From: Saccharicrinis fermentans DSM 9555 = JCM 21142
GTDB taxonomy: Bacteria; Bacteroidota; Bacteroidia; Bacteroidales; Marinilabiliaceae
Assembly (NCBI RefSeq): GCF_000517085.1
Contig: NZ_KI912107.1
Span: 4,151,980-4,215,979 of the forward strand
Direction: 5' to 3'
DNA: 64,000 nucleotides
Under the pieces are notes generated by a model that was given only the letters and a program-made list of their open reading frames with translations, had not been told where the DNA came from and ran no database searches. The translations under genes were made by a program, and so were the position numbers. Numbering within the stretch: the stretch's first letter is position 1; each line of letters starts with the position of its first letter. Positions 10,184-53,793 of this stretch are shown here, one piece after another.

Positions 10184-10210
10184 TACAAATATTTTTAGTT
10201 ATTGTCATTC

Positions 10211-11662: not shown

Positions 11663-11745
11663 AAACCGTAATTTAATTATCCCTTAAAAAAATCATGGAG
11701 AGTTACATTAAATCTCTCCATGATAAACTACGCACTACTCAAATA

Positions 11746-13482
11746 TTAGTAACCTACATTTTGCTCATAAAGACCTTTAGTAAAATCAATTTCTCTTTGA
11801 GGAATTGGATAATACTCATCCCTTCCAGCTGTAAACTGAGCCTCCTTTAAGAAATCTCTTCTTGTTTTTTCTTTAGCCAGATAGGCATTCAATGTTGGTT
11901 CGGCGATACCCCATCTAACAAGATCGAAGAACCGGGGGCTTTCCAAGGCAAACTCCAATCTTCTCTCCCACTGCAGGGCTTTACGCGCATTCTCTTGGGT
12001 CCATGGTAGATTAACACCATCATAGGCACCAATCATATAATTAGATGGGGATGTACCATCCGCCAATTTAGTCCGAGCAGTACTATTGGCAGCTCTTTCT
12101 CTCACCTTATTAATCAAAGGCATAGCCTTATCATGCTCACCTAACTCAATATATGCCTCGGCTTGCATTAACAATACATCAGCATAACGGATGATATCGA
12201 TATTTTTTGACGTTCCAATAAAAGAGCCTTCCTTTTTATAGCAAGAACAGTCAGCAGCCTGTTGTTCTTTCATACTCTGAAAGAATCCATATACACCAGG
12301 ATCGCGCACCCAGCTGTTATTAAATATATAGGCTTCTTCATTTCGATATTTATATGGATGACCGTCAATACCAACGGAGTGATCAATACGAGGATCAACA
12401 GTAACCCCTGTTGGCGTAATATCGGCAGCACTTAACTCTACTTCATTAAAAGTATCAAACTTAGGAAGTCCATTAACATCCGTTGCAAAAGCGTTCACCA
12501 GATTTTGGCTAGGCGCATGAAATCCACAACATCCGAACTGAGTTGCGCCATGCGGATAATTCAATCCAGTAACAAAACTTAAACGTCCTACGGCGGTACC
12601 GTCACTGATGGAGAATTGAACAGCAAAAATAGATTCTGGACCATTATCAAAACCATCTAAGAAATTCTCTCCAAAATCCGGCTGAAGGCTGTACTTTCCA
12701 GAACCGATAACCTCTTGCGTTAAACGGACAACTTCTTGCAGTTTATCTGTATTGATATCAATAACCTGGTTCTGTTCATCCTGCTCATATGCCTGATATA
12801 GTCTCACCTTAGCCAAGTAAGCAGCTGCGGCATAATAATTTGCTCTACCCACCTGATCCTGGGTTTCAGGTAAGTTATCCACGCCATACTGGAAATCCTC
12901 GGCTATTTTATCCCATAGCTGATCATTGGTAAGTTCTCTATTAGAAATAGTAAGAATCTCTTCTTTGGTCAAGCCTTCCTTTATGTAGGGAATATATTTA
13001 AACATAACTTTCAACATAAAATAAGCATGTCCACGAATAAAACGGGCCTCACCAATTCTTACTTTTCGCAACTCATAGTCGTCATCACTCAATTGATTCA
13101 GCGCGACGAGAGCAGAGTTTGCTCTGGATATTACGGTATAAAAGTTCTCCCAGGTATAGGGATGCATCCAATTCTGATCAGCTTGTGTTAGGTTATATTG
13201 TTCATAAAAGTTTATATCGGCAACATCACCAACGCCACCCCCTCCTTTATAGGCATCATCAGAACGAACACTACCATATACCCACATACTGGTCATAGGG
13301 CCAATCATATCATCATTTCCCACAGCTGCATAAGCTGCAGTAACAAGTCCATCCGCACTTTCGGCTGTAGGTGCGCCTGCGGTAACAGCACCTTGAGGAT
13401 CTACCTCCAGAAAATCAGTACACGAAATAGCAGAAACAACTGCCAACATGCAACATGCAATATATATAAATTTGGATTTCAT
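11746..13482 (-). CDS. SusD/RagB-family outer membrane lipoprotein
   Basis: A 578-residue nutrient-binding lipoprotein that caps the SusC channel. I place the start at the ATG at 13482, which gives a clean lipoprotein signal ending VVSAISC (Cys21) and lies 19 bases after the susC stop; an earlier in-frame ATG at 13515 would overlap susC. SusD hallmarks are the TPR-like helical N-terminal half, with an ARFIRGHAYF stretch near residue 145 (SusD-like RxxRAxxYF), and the C-terminal RRLEFALESPRFFDLVRWG and YYPIPQREID motifs. It works with the upstream SusC and the two GH32-type proteins in fructan capture. Confidence 0.94.
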   Translation of the reverse strand: MKSKFIYIACCMLAVVSAISCTDFLEVDPQGAVTAGAPTAESADGLVTAAYAAVGNDDMIGPMTSMWVYGSVRSDDAYKGGGGVGDVADINFYEQYNLTQADQNWMHPYTWENFYTVISRANSALVALNQLSDDDYELRKVRIGEARFIRGHAYFMLKVMFKYIPYIKEGLTKEEILTISNRELTNDQLWDKIAEDFQYGVDNLPETQDQVGRANYYAAAAYLAKVRLYQAYEQDEQNQVIDINTDKLQEVVRLTQEVIGSGKYSLQPDFGENFLDGFDNGPESIFAVQFSISDGTAVGRLSFVTGLNYPHGATQFGCCGFHAPSQNLVNAFATDVNGLPKFDTFNEVELSAADITPTGVTVDPRIDHSVGIDGHPYKYRNEEAYIFNNSWVRDPGVYGFFQSMKEQQAADCSCYKKEGSFIGTSKNIDIIRYADVLLMQAEAYIELGEHDKAMPLINKVRERAANSTARTKLADGTSPSNYMIGAYDGVNLPWTQENARKALQWERRLEFALESPRFFDLVRWGIAEPTLNAYLAKEKTRRDFLKEAQFTAGRDEYYPIPQREIDFTKGLYEQNVGY

Positions 13483-13501
13483 AATTCTAGCTTTAATAAT
13501 T

Positions 13502-16500
13502 TTATAATGTAACATTTACGCCAAACGATATTGAACTTGGAATTGGAATGGTATTAACATCTAATCTTTCCGGATCAGGACCTTTGAATTCTTTTGAACT
13601 AATCCAAAAAAGGTTATCGGCCATACAGTAGACTCTCAGTTTTTCAAGTTTAATCTTATCTGTAAACGATTTATTAAAAGTATAACCCAGTTGTACATTT
13701 CTTAACTTGAAGTATGAAGCATTAATATTGTAATAATCAGAGACTCTGGTTTCATTATTATTATCTGACAAACTCAATGCGGGAATTGAGGAGTCCATAT
13801 TTTGTGGTGTCCATGCATCAAAGACGCCCGGCCCAACGTTATCTCTTCCTCTAACGAAATCATTAAAATAGACATAAGGATCATAGCCTGTTTTACCGGC
13901 AACACCAGAACCAAAGATTGAGCAATCGAAGTTTTTATATTCCACATCTATTTTTAAGCTATACTCTAATTTTGGCAAGGTAGTCCCCAAGAAATCCTGA
14001 TCAAGCGCATCAATTTTATTATCTCCATTTAAATCTTTATAACGAATACGCCCAATCCCTTTCCCTGGCTGGTCTGCATGCTCATCTACCTCCTGCTGAG
14101 TTTTGAAGATACCATCGGTTCTATACCCAAAGATTGACAATTGAGAATGACCGACAATAGATTTCTCAGCATTTCCAGGGTAGGCTGTTCTCACCTCTTC
14201 AGGAAGCTCAGTAATTTTATCTTTAAACTGGCTACCACTGAGCGTTACTGTATAAGAAAGATCATTTTCTTTAGCCTTATAATAGCTCAAAGCCAATTCC
14301 CATCCTTTATTTTCTTTTGTTGCACCATTGAGCCATTGCATCTGCCCTTCACCAACGGCGGAAGCCACCGGAGGCTGAATTAAAATATCGCTTGTAGTAC
14401 GGGTAAAATAATCAAAGGACCCCACAATTTTACTATCCCACAATCCAAAATCGAGTCCAAGGTTAAGCTCCTCTGTGGTTTCCCATTTTACACCGGCATT
14501 GGCGGCTTGCACAGAAACAAAACCAGAAGATAAATTTCCTGAATTAGAACCAGCAAGATCATAGGCAGAACCGATATTCCAGTATCGGTCAAAGAAATCA
14601 TCATGCCCAATACCAGACACTTGAAAAGCTGTAGATCCGTAACGAGGCTCAAACAGTCCCAGACTGGCAAAATCTCCAATATCCTGGTTACCTACTTTCC
14701 CCCAGCCGGCTCTCACTTTCAAGTTAGAAACCACATCTATGTCTTCCATAAATCGCTCCTCAGTAATTCTCCAGCCGAAGGTTGCTGCTGGAAAATAACC
14801 ATACCTATTATCCTCTCCAAACTTAGATGATCCATCACGACGGAGCGTAAAAGAAGCCAGGTATTTATCAAAGAAAGTATAATCAATTTTACCAAACTGA
14901 GAGAATAAGGTACTAGTGGTGGCATTTCCAAAACTATTTCCATTTGTAGTACCTGCATCCAACACAAAATAATCTTCCGTCTGCACTGAAAATCCTTCTT
15001 TATAAGCTGTTATCGCATTAAAATCATCTTTTACCGATTCAACGCCCAACAGAAACTTAAAGCTATGATAATTCACATCCAGTTTATAATTCAGCGTATT
15101 AGACCATGTAACGCTGGTAAAATCACTTTGCATCTGGGTCATATTATTAACCGCACGAGCAATAAAACCTTCTGTAAATGCCGGTTCAATATCTTTATCT
15201 TTAATCATTGAGAAATCAAGACCTACATTTGTTTTAAATTTCAGATCCTTCGCCAACTCTAATTCAGCAAATATATTTCCAAACAAATAAGAACGTTTGG
15301 TATTATCCCATCTATTAATATACTGCATATGTAGTGGGTTGTTACGGTCAGAATAACCAGAACCCAAGGGGCCTGCAAATTCCCCTGTATTAGTATACAC
15401 CGGGATAGTTGGCGCCAAGGTAACCGCCAGACCGGGAGTTGGTGCAGAACCTAAGTCAGGCGTTTCTAAAGTTTCATTGGAAGTCACAAAAGTAGTATTG
15501 ATACCCACCTTAACCTTCTCATCAAACATACTTGTATGCGCGTTTAAACGTGATGTAATACGGTCATAATCGGTATATTTCAAGATACCTGTATTTTTGA
15601 TATAACCAAGATTCAAAAGAACAGAGGACTTCTTATCTCCGCCTGAGATGGTAAGGTCATTGTTGATCACATACCCTGGCTCGTACATTACATCCTGCCA
15701 GTCTGTATCCCCTACCGGAACATTGGTATCTCCACCCACATAGGGCTGAACAGAAACACTATTTAAAACAGGGTTATTATAATCTCCATTCCAATCGAAA
15801 TTATAAATCTCACCATATCCACTGACTGGATCAACACCATCGTTAACAGACGCTTGCCACAAAGCGCGCCCTCTGTCTTCAGCATTTAACATATCAAAAC
15901 GTTGACGTTTTTCACTTTGAATAGACACATTGGAATTAAACTGCACTTTTACCCTCCCCTCATTATCCGATCCGTTTTTAGTTGTCACAATCACAACACC
16001 GTTAGAGGCACGGGATCCATAGATCGATGATGCAGATGCGTCCTTCAATACCTGAACTGAGACAATAGAGCCGGGACTGATACCTTGAAAAACTTCTGGT
16101 CGTTTAGTTGGAACGCCATCAATAATATATAAGGGGTTGTTATCCCCTAAGGTATTTACCCCTCGTATAAGGATACGGCTATTGGTACCTGATGGCGAAC
16201 CAGACTTTTCAATGTAAAGTCCAGGCACTCTACCCTGCAAAGCCTGCATCGGATTACCAGAGCTTAGACTTACATTTTCAATGGATTTCATTTTGACTAC
16301 CTCCACAGCACCTGTCAAGTCGGCCTTACGCATGGAAGAATAACCGGTCACTACTACTTGTTCGAGGTCTAATGTCTGATCTCTCAATGTAATATTTAAT
16401 GCAGTCATATTAGCACTTACATCTATCACCTGACTATTCATACCAATAAAAGAGAATGTCACCGTTGATCCAACCGGAGCTTTTAGTAAAAAATTTCCTT

Positions 16501-16699
16501 CTATATCGGTAATCGTCCCGGTGGTACTACCTGTAACAACGACAGTCACCCCTGGCAAAGGGTTTCCGGTTTGATCGACGACGGTACCCGTAACATTTAT
16601 TAATTCCTGCCCAAAAATTATCTGAGGAATTAACATTAGCATCATGAATGCTAAAATCAGCTTTCTACAATTTTTGCTAAAGACACTGTTTTTTTTCAT
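13502..16699 (-). CDS. SusC-type TonB-dependent outer membrane transporter
   Basis: A 1065-residue TonB-dependent receptor. After a signal peptide (to about residue 30, FGQ) come a carboxypeptidase-D-like regulatory domain (about 35-110, VTGTVVDQTGNPLPGVTV) and the DQTLDLEQVVVTGYSS box. The plug domain contains the SusC signature NPLYIIDGVP and the stretch ASASSIYGSRASNGVVIVTT; a 22-strand barrel should fill the rest. It imports oligosaccharides released at the surface, driven by TonB-ExbBD. It is the first gene of the minus-strand fructan operon, and the divergent sensor gene lies beyond a 425-base regulatory gap. Confidence 0.96.
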   Translation of the reverse strand: MKKNSVFSKNCRKLILAFMMLMLIPQIIFGQELINVTGTVVDQTGNPLPGVTVVVTGSTTGTITDIEGNFLLKAPVGSTVTFSFIGMNSQVIDVSANMTALNITLRDQTLDLEQVVVTGYSSMRKADLTGAVEVVKMKSIENVSLSSGNPMQALQGRVPGLYIEKSGSPSGTNSRILIRGVNTLGDNNPLYIIDGVPTKRPEVFQGISPGSIVSVQVLKDASASSIYGSRASNGVVIVTTKNGSDNEGRVKVQFNSNVSIQSEKRQRFDMLNAEDRGRALWQASVNDGVDPVSGYGEIYNFDWNGDYNNPVLNSVSVQPYVGGDTNVPVGDTDWQDVMYEPGYVINNDLTISGGDKKSSVLLNLGYIKNTGILKYTDYDRITSRLNAHTSMFDEKVKVGINTTFVTSNETLETPDLGSAPTPGLAVTLAPTIPVYTNTGEFAGPLGSGYSDRNNPLHMQYINRWDNTKRSYLFGNIFAELELAKDLKFKTNVGLDFSMIKDKDIEPAFTEGFIARAVNNMTQMQSDFTSVTWSNTLNYKLDVNYHSFKFLLGVESVKDDFNAITAYKEGFSVQTEDYFVLDAGTTNGNSFGNATTSTLFSQFGKIDYTFFDKYLASFTLRRDGSSKFGEDNRYGYFPAATFGWRITEERFMEDIDVVSNLKVRAGWGKVGNQDIGDFASLGLFEPRYGSTAFQVSGIGHDDFFDRYWNIGSAYDLAGSNSGNLSSGFVSVQAANAGVKWETTEELNLGLDFGLWDSKIVGSFDYFTRTTSDILIQPPVASAVGEGQMQWLNGATKENKGWELALSYYKAKENDLSYTVTLSGSQFKDKITELPEEVRTAYPGNAEKSIVGHSQLSIFGYRTDGIFKTQQEVDEHADQPGKGIGRIRYKDLNGDNKIDALDQDFLGTTLPKLEYSLKIDVEYKNFDCSIFGSGVAGKTGYDPYVYFNDFVRGRDNVGPGVFDAWTPQNMDSSIPALSLSDNNNETRVSDYYNINASYFKLRNVQLGYTFNKSFTDKIKLEKLRVYCMADNLFWISSKEFKGPDPERLDVNTIPIPSSISFGVNVTL

Positions 16700-16737
16700 A
16701 ATAAATAGATTTAGAATACTTACCTAGTAATGGGCGA

Positions 16738-16745
16738 TCAAGATA
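16738..16745 (-). promoter_or_regulatory. Possible -7 element of the susC promoter
   Basis: On the minus strand this reads TATCTTGA, one step from TAnnTTTG, about 40 bases upstream of the susC ATG. No good -33 partner is seen, which fits a promoter that needs an activator. The call is tentative. Confidence 0.35.
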
Positions 16746-16815
16746 TTCAATCACCACTTTTTAATAATCTTTAACACAAACTTAAGGTAGTGAACATCTA
16801 TGCGATATCACAGAA

Positions 16816-16903
16816 GTTACAAGGTATATCAATCAGGTTACATACCCTGATTTTACAGAGCGCATCTATCACTGACGTTACCGAGAGGTAACATAAGTGA
16901 TAG
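16816..16903. promoter_or_regulatory. Clustered dyads and GTTAC repeats in the susC/sensor gap, candidate operator
   Basis: Two inverted repeats lie together: AATCAGG-N8-CCTGATT (16831-16852) and a larger dyad CTATCACT-gac-GTTACC-gaga-GGTAAC-ata-AGTGATAG (16866-16903). GTTAC also recurs at 16816, 16837 and 16877, that is 21 and 40 bases apart, near integral helical turns. They lie about 120-205 bases upstream of susC and beside the divergent hybrid sensor that ends in an AraC-type DNA-binding domain, so they are the best candidates for its binding site. A structured RNA element cannot be excluded for the larger dyad. Confidence 0.5.
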
Positions 16904-17124
16904 GTAAAAAAACTGAGATCTTATGACATTTTTTAACAGCATCAACAAAAATTAAAAGAAAAGAATGATACGAATATTAGAACTTCCTATTCTCCCTAGA
17001 AGGTTTCTTTGCTTACTATTTAAACCCAGTCAATTAGTCAGTCAAGGATTTAATACAATTTACTTTGCTATATTCAAATTTCTTCCCCGATTTTCATTAT
17101 TTTGGACATCCAAACATATCCAAT

Positions 17125-19923
17125 ATGCGGACAATTATCATTTATATATTTCTTAGCGTATCATTACTCACCTTATCATCCTGCAGGAAGAGGCAAAAGG
17201 CAACTTTTCACATAGGATTCTCTCAATGTACAGATAAGGATTTATGGCGTCAAACAATGAATCAGGAGATGCGTGTAGAGGCTTCGTTATATTCGGATAT
17301 TAAGCTAACGATATTAAATGCTGACGGGATTAACAAGAAACAAAATATTCAAATTCAACAGTTAATAAATATGGGCGTAGATCTATTAATCATATCGCCC
17401 AATGAATCCGAGCCCATCACTAAGATTGCAGAAGAAGCATATAACAGAGGTATACCCACAATAATTATTGACAGAAAGATAAATTCTGATAATTACACAG
17501 CTTACATAGGTGCCAACAATTACGAGATAGGAAAAAACGTAGCCGAATATTTGGGCAACTTATTTTCGAACCAGCGCAAGAGCATCCTCGAAATCAGGGG
17601 TCTTGACAAATCCAGTCCAGGATGCGATCGCCACCAAGGATTTTTGAAAGGTCTAGAACGTCATCCTCACCTACAAATGAAAGCCAGTGAAGAAGGTCAA
17701 TGGTTACCTGAAATAGCAGGAGCGATAGCTATGACGAAGTTTAAGGAAGATTCATTCGACATTGTTTTTGCTCATAATGATGTAATGGCCTTAGGCGCAC
17801 GCAAGTTCGCACCCAAAGAACAGCTATCTCATCTATTTTTCGTGGGCGTAGACGCCCTTCCTTCACTCGGTATTAAGAAAGTCTACGAAGGAGAACTTCA
17901 GGCCTCATTTATATATCCTACCGGAGGTAACCTGGCCATAGATTTAGCCATCCAAATACTTCATCATAAACCATATATAAGAATCAACGAACTAGAAACA
18001 TCCGTTGTTGACGAAAGCAACGTAAAAGTAATACAACTACAACAAAAACAAGTATTAAACCAACAGTCTACCATCAACAAGCAAATTGGAAAAATTGAAG
18101 CCCAAAACCAAGAATACAATGACCAACGAACCTTACTCCATGTAACACTCATTAGTTTGTTTTTATTAGTGGTAGCTGCATTATGGTTGGCCTTCTACTT
18201 TGTTAGAATCAATAAAAAGAATCATGAATTAGCCATAAAAAATGCAGCTATTGAGCGTCAAAAGAAAGAATTAGAAAAGAAAAACGAACAGATACTCGAG
18301 ATGAGCAAAAAAGTAGAAGATGCTACCCAAGCTAAACTCACTTTTTTCACCAATATCAGTCACGAAATACGCACACCCCTATCGCTGATACAAGCACCGG
18401 TAAGGACAATGATGACACAAGCTCACAAACTAAACCTACCATCGTCTGTAAATAGCAGTTTAAATCTGATACAGCGTAATACTGATCGCTTGCTGCGTAT
18501 GGTAAACCAGTTAATGGATTTTAGAAAGGTAGAATTAGGCAAGGCAGACTTAAGCATCAGCAAGGTTAATATAATAGATGAATGCAAGCACATCTATCAA
18601 TCATTTATGCCCCTTGCCCAGCAAAAAAACATTGATTTTCACTTAGAAAAAGAAGAAACAAGATACGATGTTTGGATTGATGTGGACAAAATAGATAAAG
18701 TCCTTTTTAACCTACTATCAAATGCTTTTAAGTTTACCCCTAAAGACGGAGTCATTGTTATTCGCATAAAAACCAACCACGATAAATATGTATTAATAGA
18801 AATATCAGATAGCGGCCCTGGAATATCCCATAAAGAAAGCGGTAATATATTTGAGCCATTTTATCAACAAAGTGAACACCGATCTATGGGTACTGGCATC
18901 GGATTATCGCTATCAAAAGGTTTTATGAAATTACACCATGGTGCACTGGCATTAAGCAAAAGCGATTCACAAGGCAGTATATTTACCATTTCTATCCCCA
19001 AAGGGAAAGAACATTTTAGTACCAAACAAATAATCCAAATTCAACAGGAAATAAAGACAACACCCGAAACAAACAACTTATATCATAATAAAGAAAAGCC
19101 TCTACTCACTAATAATAGCCATAAAGAAAACACCGTACTAATTGTGGAAGACGATATTGAGCTAAGGGAATACCTAACGAACCTACTAGATGAATACTTT
19201 TTTGTTAAAAGCGCAGAGAATGGAAAGATAGCACTGGAAATGCTGCAAGAAGAACATCCTGACATTATTGTCACTGATTTAATGATGCCTGAGTTAAACG
19301 GTATTGAAATGACTAAAAAAATTAGATCCAATCTCGAAACCTGTCACCTTCCTTTAATCATGCTCACTGCTAAGAGTACACAAGACCAAAAGATTGAAGG
19401 AATAGAAACAGGTGCCGATGCCTATATAGAAAAACCTTTTACGACAACTTACTTATTAGTTCGAATCCGAAAACTTATTGAATCCAGAGCCATTCTTCGG
19501 GAATACCACAAAAATAATATGCTGAACCCTGAGATGATCAAACAATCTAATCAAAACCCCTTGGACAAAAAGTTTTTATCAAACCTAATTCTGATGGTTG
19601 AATCTAAGTACAGCGACGCAAATTTCAGTGTTGAAGAATGTGGTCGACAACTAGGACTCTCAAGAATCCACCTCTACCGTAAGGTAAAAGCATTAACAGA
19701 TTACACGCCCTCGGAATTCATCAATAAATACCGGTTAAGAAAAAGCAAAGACTTATTACTTAAACAACATTCCAATATAAACGCAGTAGCCTTTGAGGTA
19801 GGTTTTTCCTCAGCCGCTTATTTTACCAAAAAATTCAAAGAAGAGTATGGCATGACTCCTTCGCAATTCATAGAACAAAGAGGCTCTATGAGATCCATAA
19901 GCATGGAAACAAAACCAAGATAA
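17125..19923 (+). CDS. Hybrid two-component sensor/regulator with sugar-binding periplasmic domain
   Basis: A 932-residue one-protein signalling system. I choose the ATG at 17125 because it opens a lipoprotein-like signal (LLTLSSC); an upstream in-frame ATG at 17065 adds 20 atypical residues. Domains in order: LacI/RbsB-like periplasmic binding domain (about 30-310), membrane segment (about 337-360), coiled coil, HisKA with phospho-His413 in NISHEIRTPL, HATPase (NLLSNAFKF, GTGIGLSL), receiver with phospho-Asp718 in VTDLMMPE, and an AraC-type double HTH (about 830-925). This architecture, rather than the common propeller-Y_Y_Y sensor, matches BT1754, which binds fructose. It probably activates the divergent susC operon when free fructose appears in the periplasm. 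Confidence 0.93.
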   Translation: MRTIIIYIFLSVSLLTLSSCRKRQKATFHIGFSQCTDKDLWRQTMNQEMRVEASLYSDIKLTILNADGINKKQNIQIQQLINMGVDLLIISPNESEPITKIAEEAYNRGIPTIIIDRKINSDNYTAYIGANNYEIGKNVAEYLGNLFSNQRKSILEIRGLDKSSPGCDRHQGFLKGLERHPHLQMKASEEGQWLPEIAGAIAMTKFKEDSFDIVFAHNDVMALGARKFAPKEQLSHLFFVGVDALPSLGIKKVYEGELQASFIYPTGGNLAIDLAIQILHHKPYIRINELETSVVDESNVKVIQLQQKQVLNQQSTINKQIGKIEAQNQEYNDQRTLLHVTLISLFLLVVAALWLAFYFVRINKKNHELAIKNAAIERQKKELEKKNEQILEMSKKVEDATQAKLTFFTNISHEIRTPLSLIQAPVRTMMTQAHKLNLPSSVNSSLNLIQRNTDRLLRMVNQLMDFRKVELGKADLSISKVNIIDECKHIYQSFMPLAQQKNIDFHLEKEETRYDVWIDVDKIDKVLFNLLSNAFKFTPKDGVIVIRIKTNHDKYVLIEISDSGPGISHKESGNIFEPFYQQSEHRSMGTGIGLSLSKGFMKLHHGALALSKSDSQGSIFTISIPKGKEHFSTKQIIQIQQEIKTTPETNNLYHNKEKPLLTNNSHKENTVLIVEDDIELREYLTNLLDEYFFVKSAENGKIALEMLQEEHPDIIVTDLMMPELNGIEMTKKIRSNLETCHLPLIMLTAKSTQDQKIEGIETGADAYIEKPFTTTYLLVRIRKLIESRAILREYHKNNMLNPEMIKQSNQNPLDKKFLSNLILMVESKYSDANFSVEECGRQLGLSRIHLYRKVKALTDYTPSEFINKYRLRKSKDLLLKQHSNINAVAFEVGFSSAAYFTKKFKEEYGMTPSQFIEQRGSMRSISMETKPR

Positions 19924-21767: not shown

Positions 21768-23207
21768 TTAGTATTTTTCATCCTTAACAAGCTTGCCATT
21801 TACTTCTTTCACAAGCCTTATTAGCTTTTCATTTTCATCATAATATGTATCTACATCTTCATCAAAGGATCTATCATCATTATAAAGGTGTACACTCATT
21901 TCTTTTAATTTACCACTTTCATAAAACGCTTTGCTTACATACTCTTCCAACTTTCTATCTTCCAAATAGTTATTTGTAAATAGACTTTTAATTTCCCCGT
22001 TAGGATAATATTCGATTGTTTTAATCGGGAGCCTGAATTCATATTTAACTTTGCTAAACTTTTCCATCTCGATAGATCCATCATTAAAGTAAAATGTTTG
22101 TTTGAACGCTTTTGTTTCGTGTCTTAGTTTTCCATCAGGATAATATGAAACGGAAATATTGTCCTTAATATTACCCCCAAAATTATAATCATACTTAGCG
22201 TGCCTTTTAAGATCTCCATTAATGTAAAACTCTTTATATTCCTTTGACACATCAATCACATAAACATTTTTCTCCGCAAGCTTTCCATTCCAGTAATACA
22301 CAAACTCCTCTAGTTCTTGTCCTTCATTATTATATAAGGTTTTTGCAATCATATTTCCAGACATATCATACAATTTCCACTCACCCCTTTCATCAAGTCT
22401 AGATGAAATATACTGCTCATTTAAATCTGAAACATCAACATTACCCAACCAATAGTATTTCTGTTTTGGCTTTTTATCTACTTTATCCGAATACCCTTCG
22501 GAGTATTCAAAATAATCATCACTTAATTCATAAATTTTTACCGGATTTTGAGGCTTCCCATTAACAAACATGATTTCTCTTTCTACTACATTGTGCAATT
22601 CTTCTTCATCTGTAAAATAGGTTTTCCATTGTCCCACAGGCACACCCATTTCATATTGTCCTGTAATTTGAATTTTACCATCATCATACTCTATATACTC
22701 TCCATGCTTAACATCTTCATAATAATGAATAACTTCATCTAATTGTGAGTTTCTAAATATTTTACTAGCTCCATGAAGCATACCATTACTGAAACTCTCC
22801 ATTTGAAACAAATTACCATTATTAAAATAAATTTCTTTTAGACCATGTTTTACACCATTTTGATAGCTTACTGATTCATATATGTTTCCAGACTTATAGT
22901 AAGTTCTATGAACACCAGTAGGTTTGCCATTTATGTAATCTCCTGTTGAATAGACTGTGCCATCTTCCCAATAAAGGGTAGATGTACCATCTATCTTATC
23001 ATTCGCAAAATTTGCACTTTTAACTAAACTACCATCCGCTCTATAAGCTTTCCATACCCCTGTTTTATTACCTAATGCATCTTTTTCCCCACTGACTCTT
23101 TTATAAGAATAATCAGGACTATCACAAAAAGGTACATTTTGTGCCTGAGTACAGACTGTATTTGCTAAATACACTAATATTGAAAATAAAAATATTGTTG
23201 TTTTCAT
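21768..23207 (-). CDS. Secreted MORN-repeat protein
   Basis: A 479-residue protein with a Sec signal peptide (cleavage near TQAQ, about residue 23) and repeated MORN_2 units across its length, each with the pattern G.W..Y...G.L......y.nGk..G....Y...G.i. Such repeats form extended beta structures; in Bacteroidota they are usually labelled YwqK-type antitoxin family, which should not be read as a real toxin-antitoxin function. The gene is 28 bases downstream of a larger protein with the same repeat type, so the pair is probably co-transcribed and surface or periplasmic. Function unknown. Confidence 0.75.
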   Translation of the reverse strand: MKTTIFLFSILVYLANTVCTQAQNVPFCDSPDYSYKRVSGEKDALGNKTGVWKAYRADGSLVKSANFANDKIDGTSTLYWEDGTVYSTGDYINGKPTGVHRTYYKSGNIYESVSYQNGVKHGLKEIYFNNGNLFQMESFSNGMLHGASKIFRNSQLDEVIHYYEDVKHGEYIEYDDGKIQITGQYEMGVPVGQWKTYFTDEEELHNVVEREIMFVNGKPQNPVKIYELSDDYFEYSEGYSDKVDKKPKQKYYWLGNVDVSDLNEQYISSRLDERGEWKLYDMSGNMIAKTLYNNEGQELEEFVYYWNGKLAEKNVYVIDVSKEYKEFYINGDLKRHAKYDYNFGGNIKDNISVSYYPDGKLRHETKAFKQTFYFNDGSIEMEKFSKVKYEFRLPIKTIEYYPNGEIKSLFTNNYLEDRKLEEYVSKAFYESGKLKEMSVHLYNDDRSFDEDVDTYYDENEKLIRLVKEVNGKLVKDEKY

Positions 23208-23235
23208 AAGAATATGAGGTTTATTAATTCTGTAA

Positions 23236-26200
23236 TTAGTTGTTATCGTAATTTCTAATTTTTAAGTACTTACCCTGATGGTCAAACACTTTCCATTGAC
23301 CTACCTTGTTATTATTTATGCATTCTCCTTCCTCTTTTAGCGTACCATCCTCGCGATATAATTGAACATGACCTTGAAACTTACTATTTATGTATTCTCC
23401 TCTGGATTTAATATTACCGTTGGGATAATAAAATGTTATATACTCTTCAGGCAATCCTTCATTATAATCCTGAGTGGCAAAGCGAACATGGTTACGATAG
23501 GTTGTTGTTGTTCCATGCTTAATTCCATCAACATTATGGCTAAACTTCTTATGGAATTCATCATTGTAGTATACATAACTGAAATACTCCCCCTCAATTC
23601 CGCCATAATAATAATTCTTTGATATTTTTAATCTCCCTTTATCGTCGTACTCATCATATTTACCGTGCAACTCATTTCTCCTATAATTGATGCGCGTTTT
23701 TACCGTTCCATTATCATGATATTCTTCCCACTCTCCATATTTTTTATTGTTAACTAACAGTCCTAATGCCTTAACAGAACCATCTTCATGATAATATTTT
23801 ATCCTGCCTTCATTTTCAATGCTTGTCAAAGCATAATCAAACTGGCTTAGTTCCTTCATAATACCTAAAAGAGTGTTTATTGTACCTTTATTAGAAACCT
23901 CCTGGAACTTTTCTCTTCCCACCTCAAATTTTTTAAGGCTTAAATAGTAAGTATTCATTAGCTCAAACGAGTAATAACTGCTATATAGATGACTAAGTTC
24001 TTTGTACTGTTTTAAATTACTAAATGGTACCTCACCATAGATTCTATAACTTTCGTAAAGATTAAGTGCATTACTATTACTACTACTATTATTCAACTTA
24101 TAATAGTATAAATCGGCAAACCCACCTCTGTTAATTTTCTGCTGAGCATAGGTATAATCGTTAAGCTTAATAGGGTTCAAATATCCGCTTCTTTCAGAAT
24201 GAAATAGTATTTTTAAACCCAAATGGTAAGAGCTAGAAGATGCTTTGGCTCCAAATTCATTTAATTTATTTTGTAGTTCTGGATCTATACTAATATCCTT
24301 GTCATAGTGTAAACTGTAGGTACCAATTTCTATTTTGGGACTCCAGTTGCTTCGATCACTTTCTTGTCGATACCCTATTTGTTTCAATAAAAGCCCATCC
24401 CTATAATTGGTATAAAGGGCTATTTTTTTACTATTACTACTATTATTGGGAATTAATAAATCTTCGCCTGATTCTCCTCCAATATAAACATCAGCATTTT
24501 CCTTGCTAGGCCTGAATTTTTGTGTTCCAAACGAATAGTATTCTACTGATTTATCGTGGTCTTCTCGCCTTGTAGTCCAAAGCGTAGGTTCCACTAAAAT
24601 ATCTAACTTTTCTTTTTCAGGAAATGAAAAGATAAGGTATTTATTATCTTTCAAAAGATACAAGACTCTGATTTCATTGGGGTTTGAAGATTTTAATTCA
24701 TCATTAAAAAACACATAAGGTATTGGCTCGTATTTACTTCCCTTAAAATAATCTAAGTCATTTTTAAGTGTTTCCGCATAGTGATTAATAAAATCAGGCT
24801 TGGCCAACTGTTTCCTTCGCCAATTCAACTGCATTGCTTTTTCTAAAGGAGGAATAGATGCTTTTGCGTCGTACGCAAAGGCTAAACCTTCCATATCGGT
24901 TTTAGAAAATTTAATTTTATCTGGAATAATATACTTCGGATCATTAATTCTTTGTAAATGATCGTTAAAATCCGAGTTGTTTAGCCAACCACTTTGTGGA
25001 AGCGCTGTTTCATTGGCCCAAATGATACGTCGCTTAATGTCTGATGTATTAGTGACAACATTATACGCAATAAGAGAACGAACCATATATTTATGGGGTG
25101 CATAGGTAACATCAGCCTCGGTTTCCACCATCTCTTCCGACACATCGATATTTAAAACCTCTCCCTTAAACCATACTTTATTTATTTTTAACTGCGCATA
25201 TCCACGCACATCTTCCCTACTGCCTGTAACAGGCCTACCCTCAACCATAGAAGCAATTTGATCAAGGTGTGGATCGTATCTACCTCTAAAATTACGAGGA
25301 TAAATATAGTTATCGTAGCCATAAATAATCGCCCGAATACGCATTTTCATTTGTTCCACATTGGAAGATAAGGGATAGTTAGCATCTATTTCCTGCATTA
25401 AATCAGTACGAAACTTGGAGTTGGCTTTAGAAATCCTAGCAATCTTAGCGTTTAGCTCATCCTTATACGCTTTTTTCCTGACCCGTTCACTTGCCCTTTC
25501 GGCCTCTTTACGGTTAGCTCTATTTTCAAAGAGAGAATACACAGAGGAACCCAGAGCATTTAAAGAGGATTCCATTTCTTTATAATGCAGTTCTCTGTTT
25601 ATATCGTCTTGCACCATTCGGTAGGCCGCATCTTGATCTATCCCAGAATAGACATAATTGTAATAGTTTGTTTTCTTTAAAGCATCATGCATGGCCTTTT
25701 CTGCCTCATAATCTCTTTCATCATCATCACTTTCGTCATTATCATGCCCACCATTATCATCTTCATTTGTTACATCCTCACGAATTTCATTCTCTTTATT
25801 ATTTTGATTCTTACTGACACTAGAAGATGTTGATGTTTTACTGGAAGAAGTGGAAGTCTCTGCCATTTTTTCTTCCTCTTTTATTTGGTTTATAAACTCT
25901 GAAAGTTCTTCAAAATATGTTTTTTTTAATTCGCAATGCGTTATAGTTATCCTCAAATTATTTAAATCTGAAGATGTTTTAAGACCTAAAGTATTTGTAA
26001 TTTCCTTGACTTCTTCTTTCGATAAGTAATAATAATCCATCGCCCCTTTTCTTACACCACTTATTGTAAACGAAATATACACACCCAAATCTCCACTAAT
26101 GGTTGTATTATTAAATTTTGCTGTAGCTGCAACGTCAAATTGTCCATTAGTGATAACTATAGGCATTCCTTCTACACCTCGACCATAACTGTGCAATTTA

Positions 26201-26433
26201 CCCTTATAAACGAGGCCTTCAATTTGATAGGATGAAATACTACATTGCATTCTAATATCACCCAAACCAGGCGCATCCGCACGAAAGCTAACATCTGCCT
26301 TATAGCTATACTCTCCACCATTCGCATCGCCTTTCCCATTATAAATTGTATAAAAATCTTCCAAATATTTGCTTTGACCTTGCACCTCTAGACAAAACAC
26401 AACAAAAAAACTAACCAATAATATTTTTCGCAT
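23236..26433 (-). CDS. Large secreted protein with C-terminal MORN repeats
   Basis: A 1065-residue protein with a signal peptide (EVQGQ, about residue 20). The N-terminal third is unrecognised beta-rich sequence. A low-complexity linker of Ser/Thr then Asp/Glu (about residues 190-245) follows, then a coiled, highly charged stretch, a large unassigned middle domain, and from about residue 890 tandem MORN_2 units (YHEDGSVKALG, YHDNGTVKTR, YYPNGNIKSRGEY, YREDGTLKEEGE). It precedes the shorter MORN protein by 28 bases. The pair could be a scaffold or adhesin, but no catalytic motif is seen. Confidence 0.65.
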   Translation of the reverse strand: MRKILLVSFFVVFCLEVQGQSKYLEDFYTIYNGKGDANGGEYSYKADVSFRADAPGLGDIRMQCSISSYQIEGLVYKGKLHSYGRGVEGMPIVITNGQFDVAATAKFNNTTISGDLGVYISFTISGVRKGAMDYYYLSKEEVKEITNTLGLKTSSDLNNLRITITHCELKKTYFEELSEFINQIKEEEKMAETSTSSSKTSTSSSVSKNQNNKENEIREDVTNEDDNGGHDNDESDDDERDYEAEKAMHDALKKTNYYNYVYSGIDQDAAYRMVQDDINRELHYKEMESSLNALGSSVYSLFENRANRKEAERASERVRKKAYKDELNAKIARISKANSKFRTDLMQEIDANYPLSSNVEQMKMRIRAIIYGYDNYIYPRNFRGRYDPHLDQIASMVEGRPVTGSREDVRGYAQLKINKVWFKGEVLNIDVSEEMVETEADVTYAPHKYMVRSLIAYNVVTNTSDIKRRIIWANETALPQSGWLNNSDFNDHLQRINDPKYIIPDKIKFSKTDMEGLAFAYDAKASIPPLEKAMQLNWRRKQLAKPDFINHYAETLKNDLDYFKGSKYEPIPYVFFNDELKSSNPNEIRVLYLLKDNKYLIFSFPEKEKLDILVEPTLWTTRREDHDKSVEYYSFGTQKFRPSKENADVYIGGESGEDLLIPNNSSNSKKIALYTNYRDGLLLKQIGYRQESDRSNWSPKIEIGTYSLHYDKDISIDPELQNKLNEFGAKASSSSYHLGLKILFHSERSGYLNPIKLNDYTYAQQKINRGGFADLYYYKLNNSSSNSNALNLYESYRIYGEVPFSNLKQYKELSHLYSSYYSFELMNTYYLSLKKFEVGREKFQEVSNKGTINTLLGIMKELSQFDYALTSIENEGRIKYYHEDGSVKALGLLVNNKKYGEWEEYHDNGTVKTRINYRRNELHGKYDEYDDKGRLKISKNYYYGGIEGEYFSYVYYNDEFHKKFSHNVDGIKHGTTTTYRNHVRFATQDYNEGLPEEYITFYYPNGNIKSRGEYINSKFQGHVQLYREDGTLKEEGECINNNKVGQWKVFDHQGKYLKIRNYDNN

Positions 26434-26700: not shown

Positions 26701-27948
26701 TTAATTTTTATTGCAAAACTGCTTTTCAAAGATGGGCGAATAACCCTTATCTTGTAATATAAAATAATCCACATAACCGCTCCCATGAAACTTTAATGTT
26801 ACCCCCATCAGCTCACCAATAGAAGTATTATACGCTTCATGGAAAATGGTAGTGGAGTTGATCTTAATATCAACTTGCTTATTATTATTGATAATTTCAA
26901 TTTCGTTCCAGTTCTTGATATCCAACGAAAAGTTACTTAAGTCGGCATAAATCCCTTGTATTGTTTTCTCACTTAAAGTAACATTTCCGTATTGACTACA
27001 TCCCTCGTTAGCCAGTTTAATTTTAATGGATCCATTTCTTCCAACAACATGGATGTAAGCAGAATAACAACGAACAGCCGGCCAATAGCTTATATTTTTT
27101 AGTCGTGTTTTTAACTGAAAAGCATCTCCATTTTTTCCTGTTTGCCTAAAGTTATCCAAACGTAACACAATGATTCGAGTCGTATCCATACCAATATTTG
27201 CTAAAATCTTTCGTGTAGGATGAAATTCTTCAGCATTTGTTGCATATTCCAATGGTATGGGAAAATACCTTTCATTGTGGTTTTGCTGATAATAGTGGGC
27301 CAATGTTTGCCAGTCATCAGTTCCGATAAAAAGCTTAAGAGTATCAGATAATACCTGTTTCCTGGTACATATGGTTATATTAAAAATCCCGGGATATTTA
27401 TAATAATGAGAAATCAATTTCTTTTCCGCCACAAGATGCTTTAATGGATATCCATCGCCAAAGGAAATAAAAAGAGAGTCTTCTGTATCTGGAATTTCAT
27501 AATGAAAGATAGCCGTTGCCGGATTAGCCCCATCCACTTTTTGCAATTCCAACTTTACAGGTATCAATTTCTCAGAAGAAGAGGCAAATATTCCGTAAAA
27601 CCATAAAATCCCTACGATCAAAACAAATACCGCAAGCAATAAGAAATAGGTATTTTTTAAGAAAAGAAAAATCGTCTTTTCATCATCAGCATGAACATCG
27701 GCATACTTTCCCATCGCTTCTAACGTAGATTCCTGGGGATAATAGGTGTCAGGCGTCTTGTTCTTTCCAAATATTCTTTTTAAAGTGCTGGCACTGATTA
27801 AAATATTACTGGCTAACTTAATTTCAAAACTTAAATCTTTAAAATCAACATTTCTCCAGTGGCTAGGTTTACCCTTCCCAAACTTGTTAATAACTCCATT
27901 TTTTATGTAGTTAAGACGTCTCTTATATTGTCTAGTCACCAAAACCAT
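26701..27948 (-). CDS. HTH-like, membrane-anchored protein with PKD- and lectin-like outer region
   Basis: A 415-residue protein if started at the ATG at 27948; the frame continues upstream to 28035 through a repeated leader module described separately. Residues 1-75 resemble a cytoplasmic HTH-like domain common in Bacteroidota (NYIKNGVINKFGKG, SASTLKRIFG, YPQESTLEAMGKYA). A membrane segment follows (about 97-120). The extracytoplasmic part has a PKD-like strand pattern (SFGDGYPL...SHYYKYPGIFNITI) and then a jelly-roll/LamG-like region to the end. The layout suggests a transmembrane sensor or anti-sigma-like protein, but no known partner sits beside it. It diverges from the FAD oxidoreductase gene. 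Confidence 0.6.
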   Translation of the reverse strand: MVLVTRQYKRRLNYIKNGVINKFGKGKPSHWRNVDFKDLSFEIKLASNILISASTLKRIFGKNKTPDTYYPQESTLEAMGKYADVHADDEKTIFLFLKNTYFLLLAVFVLIVGILWFYGIFASSSEKLIPVKLELQKVDGANPATAIFHYEIPDTEDSLFISFGDGYPLKHLVAEKKLISHYYKYPGIFNITICTRKQVLSDTLKLFIGTDDWQTLAHYYQQNHNERYFPIPLEYATNAEEFHPTRKILANIGMDTTRIIVLRLDNFRQTGKNGDAFQLKTRLKNISYWPAVRCYSAYIHVVGRNGSIKIKLANEGCSQYGNVTLSEKTIQGIYADLSNFSLDIKNWNEIEIINNNKQVDIKINSTTIFHEAYNTSIGELMGVTLKFHGSGYVDYFILQDKGYSPIFEKQFCNKN

Positions 27949-28035
27949 AATTTTTAAGCTTCTTTCAATCAGAACACTAAGTTGTCCATTGTTCTGTTTC
28001 ACTCTGAACAAGCGAAGATGGCAATTTTTGCGCAC
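27949..28035 (-). repeat. Leader-peptide-like repeat, copy A
   Basis: On the minus strand, ATG at 28035 opens 29 codons reading RLFRVKQNNGQ and IERSLKI and running in frame into the ATG at 27948 of the next gene. The first ~35 bases of its core (aacaatggacaa and sequence 5' of it) are nearly identical to copy B at 53512-53601, whereas the downstream protein is unrelated. It is listed as a repeat because the same module precedes other genes in the window. Confidence 0.7.
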
Positions 28036-28118
28036 ATTTTAATAAGTTTGGAAAGATATTAACAGCAGAAAAGAGTATTCAACAACAGCACCAAGGTTCA
28101 GAAAAAATACAATATTCA

Positions 28119-28190
28119 ATATGAAACGAGCCATAAGAACAGATTCGCACATAGGGCAATGATTAATGTCGGCGAGTTCCATATGGCCTA
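28119..28190 (+). repeat. Degenerate tandem copy of the leader module (D')
   Basis: About 70 bases starting with GAAACGAG and ending with GAGTTCCATATGgcc, repeated about 90 bases further on (28213-28280). The frame after the shared GGCGAGTTCCATATG soon stops, and no gene follows apart from an ATGTGA at 28209, so this copy is probably decayed. Confidence 0.6.
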
Positions 28191-28210
28191 TGAAAGATAA
28201 ATTTAGACAT

Positions 28211-28304
28211 GTGAAACGAGTCATGAGAGTGATCTCTCACACAGGTGAATGATTATCACGGTGAGTTCCATATGACCATTAAGAAACAAATTATAAACAT
28301 ATGA
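28211..28304 (+). repeat. Leader-peptide-like repeat, copy D, coupled to the FAD oxidoreductase
   Basis: The last part (28248-28304) reads NDYHGEFHMTIKKQIINI and then TGA. This stop overlaps the ATG of the next gene (ATGA at 28301-28304), a classic translational-coupling arrangement. Residue pattern and spacing match copies A and C (G-[QE]-[LF]-x-x-x-I-[EK]-[RK]). Confidence 0.55.
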
Positions 28305-30070
28305 AAACACTATCATTTATTCTTATTATTTGTATCCAATCACTATACATGACAGGTATAGCACAAGATGTATTCATTGAAGCCGAAAGTTTTAATGATA
28401 AGGGAGGATGGGTTATTGACCCCCAATTTGTAGAACAAATGGGCTCACCCTATCTAATGGCTCATGGCATGGGTGTTCCAGTTGCAAATGCCATTACCCA
28501 TGTAAATTTTAAGGAAAAAGGGAAATATCATGTCTGGGCCAGAACCAAGAATTGGGCTCCGGGAAATTGGGAGGCCCCTGGACAATTTAAAATGACAGTT
28601 AATGGCATAACATTAAAAAGAACACTAGGCATTACCGCTGGATGGACATGGGAATATGCAGGTAAAGTCACCATAAAATCAACCAACGTTGAAATTCAAT
28701 TATCAGACCTTACTGGATTTAATGGCAGATGCGATGCTATTTATTTCAGTCAATCTAAAAAGATGCCACTGGAGGCAGAGACAAATCTGACTTCGTGGAG
28801 AAAAACGAAATTAGGAGAAAGTACTATTCCAGAACAACAAAAGAATTACGATTTAGTCATAACAGGAGGTGGGCTTGCCGGGTGTGCTGCTGCAATTTCG
28901 GCTGCAGAACAAGGACTAAAGGTGGCTTTAATTCATGATAGACCCGTTTTAGGAGGTAATGCCAGTGAAGAAGTTCGTGTGCATAGCTTAGGCATTTACG
29001 GCAAATATGAACGAATATTAAAAATGATTGACACCAAACACTATCCAAACGGATCGTTTAAAGCAAAATACGACCAAGAGAAACGAGATAAAAACATGAA
29101 GCGTTTTAAAAACATAGACCTCTTTTTAAATTGGAGGGCCTACGATGCTCGGTCAGAAAACGACCATATTACACATGTGGATGCCAGGCATACTGCCACC
29201 GGAGAACGTATACGTTTTAAAGCACCCCACTTTCTCGATTCTACGGGAGATGGATGGATTGGTTTTTGGGCAGGAGCAGATTTTTCATACGGCAGGGAAA
29301 GTTCAAAAACCTACGGAGAAGAATGGGAAAAAGAAGGTGAATTATGGAGCCCCGAAGAAGGTGATAATTTAGTAATGGGAGCATCCGTTCTCTGGCAAAA
29401 CGAAAAGACAAACGAAGAACATTTATTTCCTTCATTACCATGGGCGGCCGATATCGCTAAAGATCATCATGCCATTGCCGGAGAATGGTATTGGGAATTT
29501 TCAAGAAATGACCTTCATCAAATTCATGATGCTGAAGAAATTAGAGATCATATGTTACGAGCTATTTATGGATCCTTTGCCAATGCAAAAAAAATGGAAA
29601 AAAATAAGAACTATAAATTACAATGGGTTTCTTATTTAGTAGGAAAGAGAGAATCCAGACGGTTAATGGGCGATTATATATATACCTTTAATGATGTGAA
29701 AAACCATACAAAATTTGAAGATGCGGTCGTAGAAGAAAAAAGAGCAGTGGACGTTCATTACCAAAGAATTTTAAAAGACAGCAAAAATCCTGATTTTTTG
29801 TCAGAAGCCCTTTTTTACAAAACCGAAAAGTATTATATCCCCTATAGATGTCTGTATTCAAGAAATATAAAAAACCTATTTCTGGCCGGCCGAAATTTTA
29901 GTTGTTCCCACATTGGCTTAGGAGGGCCGAGAGTTATGCTTACAACCGGGCAAATGGGTGCTGCCGTGGGACTTGCTGCCTCGATATGTAAAAAACACCA
30001 TGCAACTCCCAGAGAGGTATATACAAAATATCTCCAGGAGTACCTTGAGCTAATTGAAAAACAGCAATAG
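28301..30070 (+). CDS. Secreted FAD-dependent oxidoreductase with N-terminal lectin-like domain
   Basis: A 589-residue exported flavoprotein. After a signal peptide (TGIAQ, residue 22) comes a carbohydrate-binding-like beta domain (about 23-165: EAESFNDKGGWVIDPQF, then a W-rich core). The FAD-binding Rossmann region is LVITGGGLAGCAAAISAAEQ (near residue 187), followed by GGNASEEVR and a C-terminal FLAGRNFSCSHIGLGGPRVM typical of the FAD_oxidored family. Related proteins occur in polysaccharide loci of Bacteroidota and Planctomycetota, often mislabelled xanthan lyase; the substrate is unknown. Its stop overlaps the start of the next gene. Confidence 0.8.
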   Translation: MKTLSFILIICIQSLYMTGIAQDVFIEAESFNDKGGWVIDPQFVEQMGSPYLMAHGMGVPVANAITHVNFKEKGKYHVWARTKNWAPGNWEAPGQFKMTVNGITLKRTLGITAGWTWEYAGKVTIKSTNVEIQLSDLTGFNGRCDAIYFSQSKKMPLEAETNLTSWRKTKLGESTIPEQQKNYDLVITGGGLAGCAAAISAAEQGLKVALIHDRPVLGGNASEEVRVHSLGIYGKYERILKMIDTKHYPNGSFKAKYDQEKRDKNMKRFKNIDLFLNWRAYDARSENDHITHVDARHTATGERIRFKAPHFLDSTGDGWIGFWAGADFSYGRESSKTYGEEWEKEGELWSPEEGDNLVMGASVLWQNEKTNEEHLFPSLPWAADIAKDHHAIAGEWYWEFSRNDLHQIHDAEEIRDHMLRAIYGSFANAKKMEKNKNYKLQWVSYLVGKRESRRLMGDYIYTFNDVKNHTKFEDAVVEEKRAVDVHYQRILKDSKNPDFLSEALFYKTEKYYIPYRCLYSRNIKNLFLAGRNFSCSHIGLGGPRVMLTTGQMGAAVGLAASICKKHHATPREVYTKYLQEYLELIEKQQ

Positions 30071-48816: not shown

Positions 48817-48884
48817 CTGTATAAATTTTCTTTCAATGGCCATAAGCAACTGACCATATGAATCATTTTTGCGTATAAAAAAAA
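48817..48884 (-). repeat. Leader-peptide-like repeat, copy C
   Basis: Between the two DUF3857 genes on the minus strand, the frame reads IRKNDSYGQLLMAIERKFIQ and runs straight into the ATG at 48816. The pattern R-K-N...G-Q-L-x-x-x-I-E-R and the 39-base distance from the Gly codon to the ATG are the same as in copy A, although the genes are unrelated. Confidence 0.55.
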
Positions 48885-53425: not shown

Positions 53426-53511
53426 GTGTATATACATATTTTGATTTACTTTTAAACGACAAAACTCTATTAATTTTTAATATTTTTTCCAAACCTATTA
53501 AAATACGCACA

Positions 53512-53601
53512 AAAAGACGCCATCATCGCTTGTTCAGAGTGAAACAGAACAATGGACAAGTTAACACACAGATTGAAAGGGCTTTGAAAATCAAGGTTTA
53601 A
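53512..53601 (+). repeat. Leader-peptide-like repeat, copy B (orphan)
   Basis: The plus-strand frame reads RRHHRLFRVKQNNGQ and IERALKIKV and then TAA, immediately followed by ATG (TAAATG) opening only a 5-codon frame (MTKTY). The first half is nearly base-identical to copy A, and in the second half the codons of I-E-R-x-L-K-I differ mostly at third positions. The gene that should follow seems to have been lost next to the IS66 fragment. Confidence 0.65.
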
Positions 53602-53793
53602 ATGACTAAAACATATTAACTACATAAGAAATGGAGCTATTTACATGCTTGAGAAGGATAAACTTAGTGACTGACGAAATCTTGATTTTAACCGAAAAAC
53701 CTGCGTGATGATTTTGAACTAATTGCCATATAACCCAAAATATAAATTGCGCCAACAATAAAAGCAATCGAAGTTAGGGATTTGTATTAATGT
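53602..53793. other. Unassigned stretch upstream of the IS66 fragment
   Basis: About 190 bases with stops in every frame. I recognise nothing in it. It probably marks where a leader-repeat gene was deleted. Confidence 0.4.

Follow-up and report, generated by a model that had tools for sequence, protein, structure and literature searches.

Four short coding-like stretches, each lying directly in front of an ATG, recur in a 64,000-nucleotide stretch of contig NZ_KI912107.1 of Saccharicrinis fermentans DSM 9555 (the window hereafter), and this locus raises the question of whether they belong together and what they do. The original prediction regarded them as four copies (A to D) of one leader module with a shared peptide. 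All four were present as described, with the Gly codon of the pattern at 27987 (A, minus strand), 53554 (B, plus), 48855 (C, minus) and 28260 (D, plus), and with 39, 48, 39 and 41 bases, respectively, from that codon to the next ATG. However, they did not form a single four-copy peptide module, as A and B are homologous DNA, C is unlinked and D belongs to a separate repeated element. The reading that we favour, with a probability of roughly 0.6, is that D is a mobile structured 5' leader RNA acting as a start-codon switch, that A and B are an operator of phased TTCA half-sites, with B at a dead gene copy, and that C arose by chance.

D lies in a tandem of two units in front of an oxidoreductase gene, where the following features were assigned using, among others, R2, a covariance model built from D units of the S. 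fermentans genome.

28118–28207, plus strand: upstream tandem D unit, more divergent (R2 77 bits at G000:C3:4180097-4180189; also in the model alignment).
28208–28300, plus strand: gene-proximal D unit, which holds copy D and ends at the ATG at 28301 (R2 112.9 bits; R2 was built partly from this unit).
28208–28222, plus strand: 5' arm of the pairing P1 (CATGTGAAACGAGTC), a look-alike of the start region (P1 pair counts, also across families).
28266–28274, plus strand: internal UUCCAUAUG, which may pair with the 5' arm or the start region (pairing counts, folds).
28298–28306, plus strand: start region of the FAD oxidoreductase gene (CATATGAAA); its partner by base covariation is 28266–28274.
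28301–30070, plus strand: FAD-dependent oxidoreductase gene behind the leader (PF12831, E 4.7e-64; signal-like N-terminus by eye).

The D element is a repeat that stacks in tandem, meets start codons at its 3' junction and shows base covariation. The two window units are direct repeats with 72–76% identity at a spacing of 89–90. A DNA search located the ~90-nt repeat at 40 places in the S. fermentans genome at E < 1e-20, and many of these copies were 94–98% identical over 84–108 nt. R2 found the element in 44 of 71 genomes and 16 of 21 genera of the same bacterial family, with 1 to at least 60 units per carrier genome (0 to at least 60 in the family overall), and in 8 of 392 genomes drawn from the phylum (S. 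fermentans and 7 others); all of these are lower bounds, since R2 did not report a unit at locus L060 that was visible by eye and that scored 26 bits (E 0.023) in a smaller search. Counts per genome were capped at 60 scored candidates, or at 10 in the phylum draw. The L060 unit (L060:7719-7831, minus strand, Algoriphagus terrigena) is divergent and apparently tandem, the first scoring 26 bits, and lies upstream of a regulator gene of the kind described below. Other types of unit were also seen (L145:545-644, minus; L148:1438-1537; L150:1586-1685, minus; L152:1443-1542; and L208), in which a longer inverted repeat takes the place of the apical part, with CACACAG-/CACGCAG-like and AUGAUNA motifs retained. 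The D unit had no match in phages and plasmids, and one exact 26-mer from it had none in viral contigs.

The 3' end of D consistently met the start of a gene. All 30 of the places fetched from the S. fermentans genome ended in CATATGAAA, such that the end of D meets ATGAAA, and in 26 of them the junction ATG opened an ORF of 80 aa or more; the encoded proteins look unrelated. Among 110 units from 90 loci, many of which are copies within one genome and thus not independent events, 17 were followed by another unit matching the pattern and 93 were terminal. A total of 76 of these 93 met an ORF of 80 aa or longer (60 aa or longer if truncated by the end of the locus), 74 of them at the junction itself (offset 33–39) and two 12–17 nt further on, and 67 of the 76 ORFs opened with ATGAAA. 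Of the terminal units scored as having no gene, at least four (L145, L186 and two in L208) precede another unit type missed by the pattern, and one, in L138, is followed by the second window unit. At 60 of 84 junctions, the ATGAAA supplied the earliest in-frame ATG of an ORF of 80 aa or more, compared to 6 of 97 ATGAAA sites in the window; dropping the requirement for a first ATG gave 68 of 84 and 24 of 97, respectively. Loci from the phylum draw behaved similarly, with 12 of 16 fetched lying before an ORF of 80 aa or more (11 directly and one 10 nt further on); neighbours there included a DnaN-like protein directly and a FabH-like protein 10 nt on (both named by eye).

Within the unit, an internal segment (UUCCAUNUG) has two possible partners, either the start region of the gene (CANAUGAAA) or its 5' CANAUG look-alike. 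We compared pairing to both in 66 of the 110 units, having dropped duplicates and units lacking the ATG..GAG pattern or a clear start. In 60 of 66 units the internal base formed a Watson-Crick pair with the base preceding the start codon, and in 3 more a wobble pair (shuffle mean 30.2, maximum 45 in 5000 shuffles); with the 5' arm it formed a Watson-Crick pair in 36 of 66 units, plus 10 wobble pairs (shuffle mean 25.7, observed count reached by 7 of 5000). The internal base therefore tracks the 3' junction more than the 5' junction, so the former looks like part of the element and the latter like something inherited from the target, as expected from insertion between two copies of ATGAAA. In alignment A6, which was not fitted to structure and comprised 46 sequences chosen by eye for spread from 68 references and the window unit, 97.8% of cells in the start-region helix were paired; the variable pair was intact throughout (46 of 46), 20 changes being two-sided, and the covariation of this helix comes mainly from that one base pair. 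Sliding the partners by +2 gave 0.114 vs. 0.130, values that are close because CANAUG is near-palindromic.

On the opposite side of the proposed switch, the inner 5' arm of P1 (AAACGAGCC) pairs with GGCGAGUU, forming tandem G.A/A.G pairs in most of the sequences compared. This set of pairs changes as a whole in two other genomes, to AAUGCCC/GGGCAUU and AACGCC/GGCGUU (Watson-Crick), and L060 and L249 each show one additional P1 pair. Pairing is lost at the three outermost P1 positions in 10, 5 and 15 of 46 sequences, respectively. Single-sequence folds of 16 sequences (of which L175 was taken at the wrong place) gave either state or a mixture of the two, the two window units folded no better than shuffles (z −0.84 and −0.76), and RNAalifold predicted zero pairs on alignment A4. 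A further hairpin, P2 (UGAGA/UCUCA), found weak support, conflicted with an extended hairpin in the folds and was discarded. Overall, the pairing counts and the covariation support alternative pairings, one of which would hide the start codon, between which the leader may switch.

In the mechanism that we propose, the ~90-nt unit would sit between two ATGAAA copies, the first left upstream and the second supplying the start and second codon of the gene. In the transcript, UUCCAUNUG could pair with the start region CANAUGAAA, by which the start would be hidden, or with the 5' segment CANAUGAAAC, by which P1 would be completed and the start freed; exchange between the two would then switch translation of the downstream gene. 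A translational leader had been among the functions originally suggested, which is a fair guess for D by way of this start-codon pairing rather than a conserved peptide.

Several observations bear on how D spread. Near-identical units precede unrelated genes, units stack in tandem at ATGAAA, and ATGAAA is found on both sides of them. A directly divergent regulator/oxidoreductase pair was present in six relatives (L018, L019, L021, L022, L029 and L033), and all six lacked a D unit between these genes, both by model and by eye (a 15.5-bit R2 match in L021, E 2.6, lies elsewhere in the locus). The gap measured 163–242 bp in five of the six and 409 bp in L029, compared to 351 bp in the window, in what is an empty-site comparison between genera, not strains. 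The near-identity of units, their range of copy number, the tandem stacking and the six empty gaps are good evidence of dispersal, and we infer that D moves by insertion at ATGAAA. The suggestion of a mobile 5' element before unrelated genes is thus borne out for D, with its 40 genomic places, and not for a family of four.

The same features could be read as those of purely selfish DNA, the inverted repeats of which would be hairpins for a single-strand (IS200/REPIN-like) transposase, with a guide UUCCAT pairing to the target ATGAAA and start codons being a harmless place for insertion. This view draws on the ATGAAA on both sides, the tandem stacking and the near-identical copies, and also on the closer match of the internal base to the 3' than to the 5' junction base (60 vs. 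36 of 66), as if the 3' end were the element's own. However, a clearly linked transposase was not found among the six Y1 loci of the S. fermentans genome: of its 6 IS200-like (Y1) transposase matches, 2 of the 6 fetched loci held a D unit at E < 0.01 (54 and 30.2 bits, one of them weak), and not as a flanking pair. The tandem G.A pairs of P1 were moreover kept or replaced in pairs across families, which suggests RNA, and insertion at harmless places should also strike intergenic ATGAAA, yet 76 of 93 terminal units were at ORF starts. We therefore consider a purely selfish element unlikely.

A mode of action based on an upstream ORF (MKRAMR..SHTG.), through translational coupling or stalling of ribosomes, is less probable still. 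This ORF begins with MKRAMR in 37 of 66 units and stops at a conserved ATGA in 38. In 27 units, however, the stop lies elsewhere, and in 1 the ORF continues as far as the gene; the spacing up to the conserved ATGAYTA departs from the main frame in 12 of 53, and other families read different peptides at the same place (by eye). As the stop is not where conservation would put it in 28 of 66 units, the peptide is unlikely to be conserved.

Returning to the start-codon switch, we tentatively suggest, as a possibility that we would hold at somewhat below even odds, that D represents an undescribed class of mobile RNA leader in Bacteroidota that inserts precisely at ATGAAA starts, rebuilds the start codon at its 3' end and puts unrelated genes, some of them apparently essential, under one switch, creating a translation-level regulon in which tandem stacking would provide graded control. 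If true, a short repeat present in up to dozens of copies per genome rewires the translation of unrelated genes at their start codons, and D would be a way for a mobile element to spread a regulon without breaking genes. Bacteroidota largely lack Shine-Dalgarno pairing, and thus the determinants of initiation strength remain a question, for which D leaders would be a ready-made natural series of test cases in this phylum.

Copies A and B are accounted for by different features.

27977–28018, minus strand: copy A, half-site element (TTGTTCA ... AACA ... TGGACAAC) and proposed operator (profile built without A; phasing in the gene family).
26701–27949, minus strand: regulator gene (family alignment; weak Pfam matches).
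53523–53564, plus strand: copy B, element as in A (31.7 bits with the profile and 44.6 bits with the model R1; B is within both training sets).
53590–53691, plus strand: frameshifted remnant of a second regulator gene (DNA homology to the gene behind A).

A and B share 79% identity over 140 bp of DNA, and this homology extends past the leader for ~100 bases into the gene, to about 53691. Relative to the gene behind A, B carries an 11-bp gap just after its ATG, and reading stops at MTKTY-stop. As judged from these alignments, B is a frameshifted remnant (dead copy) of a second gene like that behind A. A DNA profile made from 12 sites (A left out, B included) scored 29.8 at A and 31.7 at B, whereas 20 Markov-generated sequences of 64 kb reached 15.7 at most; C and D were absent from its best 15 matches in the window.

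The gene behind A was without a Pfam family at E ≤ 0.001, and its N-terminal HTH-like domain and TM/hydrophobic stretch were labelled by eye. Weak Pfam matches (E ≤ 1) were obtained to PKD_4 in 19 of 41 members of the gene family and to 3keto-disac_hyd in 11 of 41, and a sequence search against solved HTH structures was uninformative, with designed TIM barrels as best matches and no stretch passing alone. Members were drawn from the S. fermentans genome, which has two further intact ones (L013, L015), from 8 of the 71 family genomes, from named species (50 loci) and from the phylum draw, in which 11 of 392 genomes carried a member at E ≤ 1e-40. Together with 26701–27949, loci L017 to L065 represent an unnamed Bacteroidota family of HTH-TM-PKD-lectin-like proteins. 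At 25 of 51 loci, a match to the SusC-like receptor (13502), the FAD oxidoreductase (28301) or the 831-aa protein (50942) of the window lies upstream on the opposite strand. The 831-aa protein (50942–53437, minus strand) matched neither a Pfam family at E ≤ 0.001 nor, above cut-off, any NCBIfam family, and relatives of it (35–71% identical) are near the regulator gene in many loci. The window also holds a polysaccharide-use locus (8591–19923) with two GH32 enzymes, SusC/SusD and a hybrid two-component regulator, as well as two large proteins of 1065 and 479 aa (21768–26433, minus strand) matched only by MORN_2 repeats.

Upstream of these regulator genes, TTCA half-sites were spaced by whole helical turns. 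Within 300 bp upstream of 62 family genes, TTCA-TTCA spacings of 11, 22 and 33 bp occurred in 16, 9 and 7 regions, compared to 1.4, 0.8 and 1.2 from shuffles, and the 11-bp spacing was found in 16 of 62 regulator upstreams vs. 4 of 297 upstreams of neighbouring ORFs; some of the loci are close relatives (four are Runella), and the counts are thus not independent. Three- and four-fold arrays were visible, for example, in Algoriphagus, Jiulongibacter and Runella loci, and 12 of 24 matches to three-site arrays in 47 loci fell in the upstream stretch, with patterns chosen after the arrays had been seen. These spacings correspond to one, two and three helical turns, as would suit a DNA operator contacted on a single helix face by an oligomer. 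From this sequence evidence, A and B are likely an operator of helically phased TTCA half-sites before the gene for a transmembrane regulator, to which the regulator itself may bind; its role is most likely autoregulation or control of divergent genes. The phased array would then be the likely operator of an unnamed regulator family often found beside polysaccharide-use genes, the regulon of which becomes testable.

In searches for further sites, R1 gave 7 matches at E < 1e-8 in 5 of the 71 family genomes, six just upstream of regulator-family genes and one being pseudogene B. Each of these had been used in training or is identical to such a site (that in G070 equals L019), so this result only shows that other strong copies did not turn up; further matches were weaker (E 3.7e-4 to 0.0092). 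A simple pattern applied genome-wide gave 24 matches vs. 25 in the reversed control, and the A/B profile had no match at p < 0.1 in 12 regulator relatives from the phylum draw, though some of these show TTCA repeats.

That the A/B element is instead an RNA stem-loop (attenuator) is highly improbable. The arms TTGTTCA/TGAACAA are 86.9% paired, compared to at most 44% when slid, but the covariation of this dyad in the A clade was not above that of shuffles or column composition, a consensus RNA fold was not found for the alignment, and the direct-repeat arrays at 11-bp steps in relatives do not form the stem (by eye). The RNA stem was thus rejected for want of covariation.

The synonymous changes between A and B had been taken as a sign that the peptide itself is selected. 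Among 10 altered codons, however, 3 changes were synonymous, 6 were non-synonymous and 1 was a stop, and the 16 differences in the 75-base ungapped module fell 3/6/7 on codon positions 1/2/3, which is without bias and gives no sign of peptide selection. The half-sites are separated by 16 bp in A and B and by 17 bp in eight relatives, which precludes conservation of a single reading frame across the two, and with 26 sites lined up the DNA motif recurred before many family genes while the reading frame did not. It is hardly credible, then, that copy A is translated into a leader peptide under selection, or that it extends the regulator at the N-terminus: its frame is open from the GTG at 28035 into the gene, and that of B until just before its ATG, but the A frame is interrupted by stops in a Labilibacter relative (locus L007/L033), in L017, a Prolixibacteraceae relative, the stretch is read in a different frame (by eye), half-site spacing varies between relatives and codon-position bias is absent. 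On the basis of the stops, the differing spacing, the profile and the codon counts, we rejected a peptide family of four.

The remaining stretch has the following position.

48816–48951, minus strand: copy C, an upstream extension of the DUF3857 ORF that overlaps the preceding gene at its end (a link to A, B or D was not found).

Copy C was neither among the best matches of the A/B profile nor found by R2, and is probably a chance resemblance.

We also asked how far these elements correspond to known ones. Rfam 15 matched only two tRNAs in the window and nothing in 27850–28400 at E ≤ 1; on six unit-bearing loci it gave a tRNA and a sub-threshold BASRCI27, neither at a unit. The BASRCI27 match (L169:408-524) scored 33 bits vs. 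59.8 and lies away from the D unit. Concept and sequence-string searches of open-licence PMC papers, seen as titles and excerpts, returned no recognised description of the D unit or the TTCA array; the papers listed as holding a 12–14-base string from the D unit are eukaryotic or viral by title, and excerpts of PMC9723704 held nothing resembling either element. As far as these literature and Rfam searches go, the D repeat is undescribed.

In translational riboswitches and other start-masking 5' leaders, alternative pairing can hide the start codon. D resembles them in its predicted alternative pairings, one of which could do so. It differs in that a genome may carry dozens of nearly identical units, each preceding an unrelated gene, in its tandem stacking and in having no evident ligand logic.

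A closer parallel in position is provided by the TAACTGA direct repeats (MacGregor, PMC4679880), which, according to excerpts of that paper, are dispersed a few nt before the start codons of unrelated genes, some of them in Bacteroidetes, with a suggested post-transcriptional action. However, those are 7-nt direct repeats, whereas D is a ~90-nt unit with paired arms that ends at the ATG and has a last base that covaries with the interior; TAACTGA was not seen by eye in the D units listed. REP/REPIN sequences with RAYT transposases, described in excerpts of PMC8049555, PMC3733652 and PMC6006769 as short, high-copy, hairpin repeats of bacterial chromosomes, likewise resemble D in being short, high-copy and hairpin-bearing. 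They differ in size, a REP unit being a palindrome of 20–40 bp (PMC3733652) compared to R2 matches of mostly 89–95 nt, and D is further distinguished by its position at start codons and by having no clearly linked transposase. For MITEs, defined as non-coding DNA flanked by a direct duplication of the target, the relevant observations are the ATGAAA on both sides of D units and the six relatives, from other genera, that lack a unit at one orthologous gene pair.

For the TTCA array, the nearest known systems are the SusR-like/HTCS operators of Bacteroides, in which, as given in excerpts of PMC3878776, repeated half-sites lie on one helix face near polysaccharide-use genes and the HTCS direct repeats average 21 bp apart. 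The array shares with them the repeated half-sites on one helix face, and departs from them in its 11-bp steps (with three or four units in some loci), in the other architecture of its regulator and in the location of the site before the regulator's own gene.
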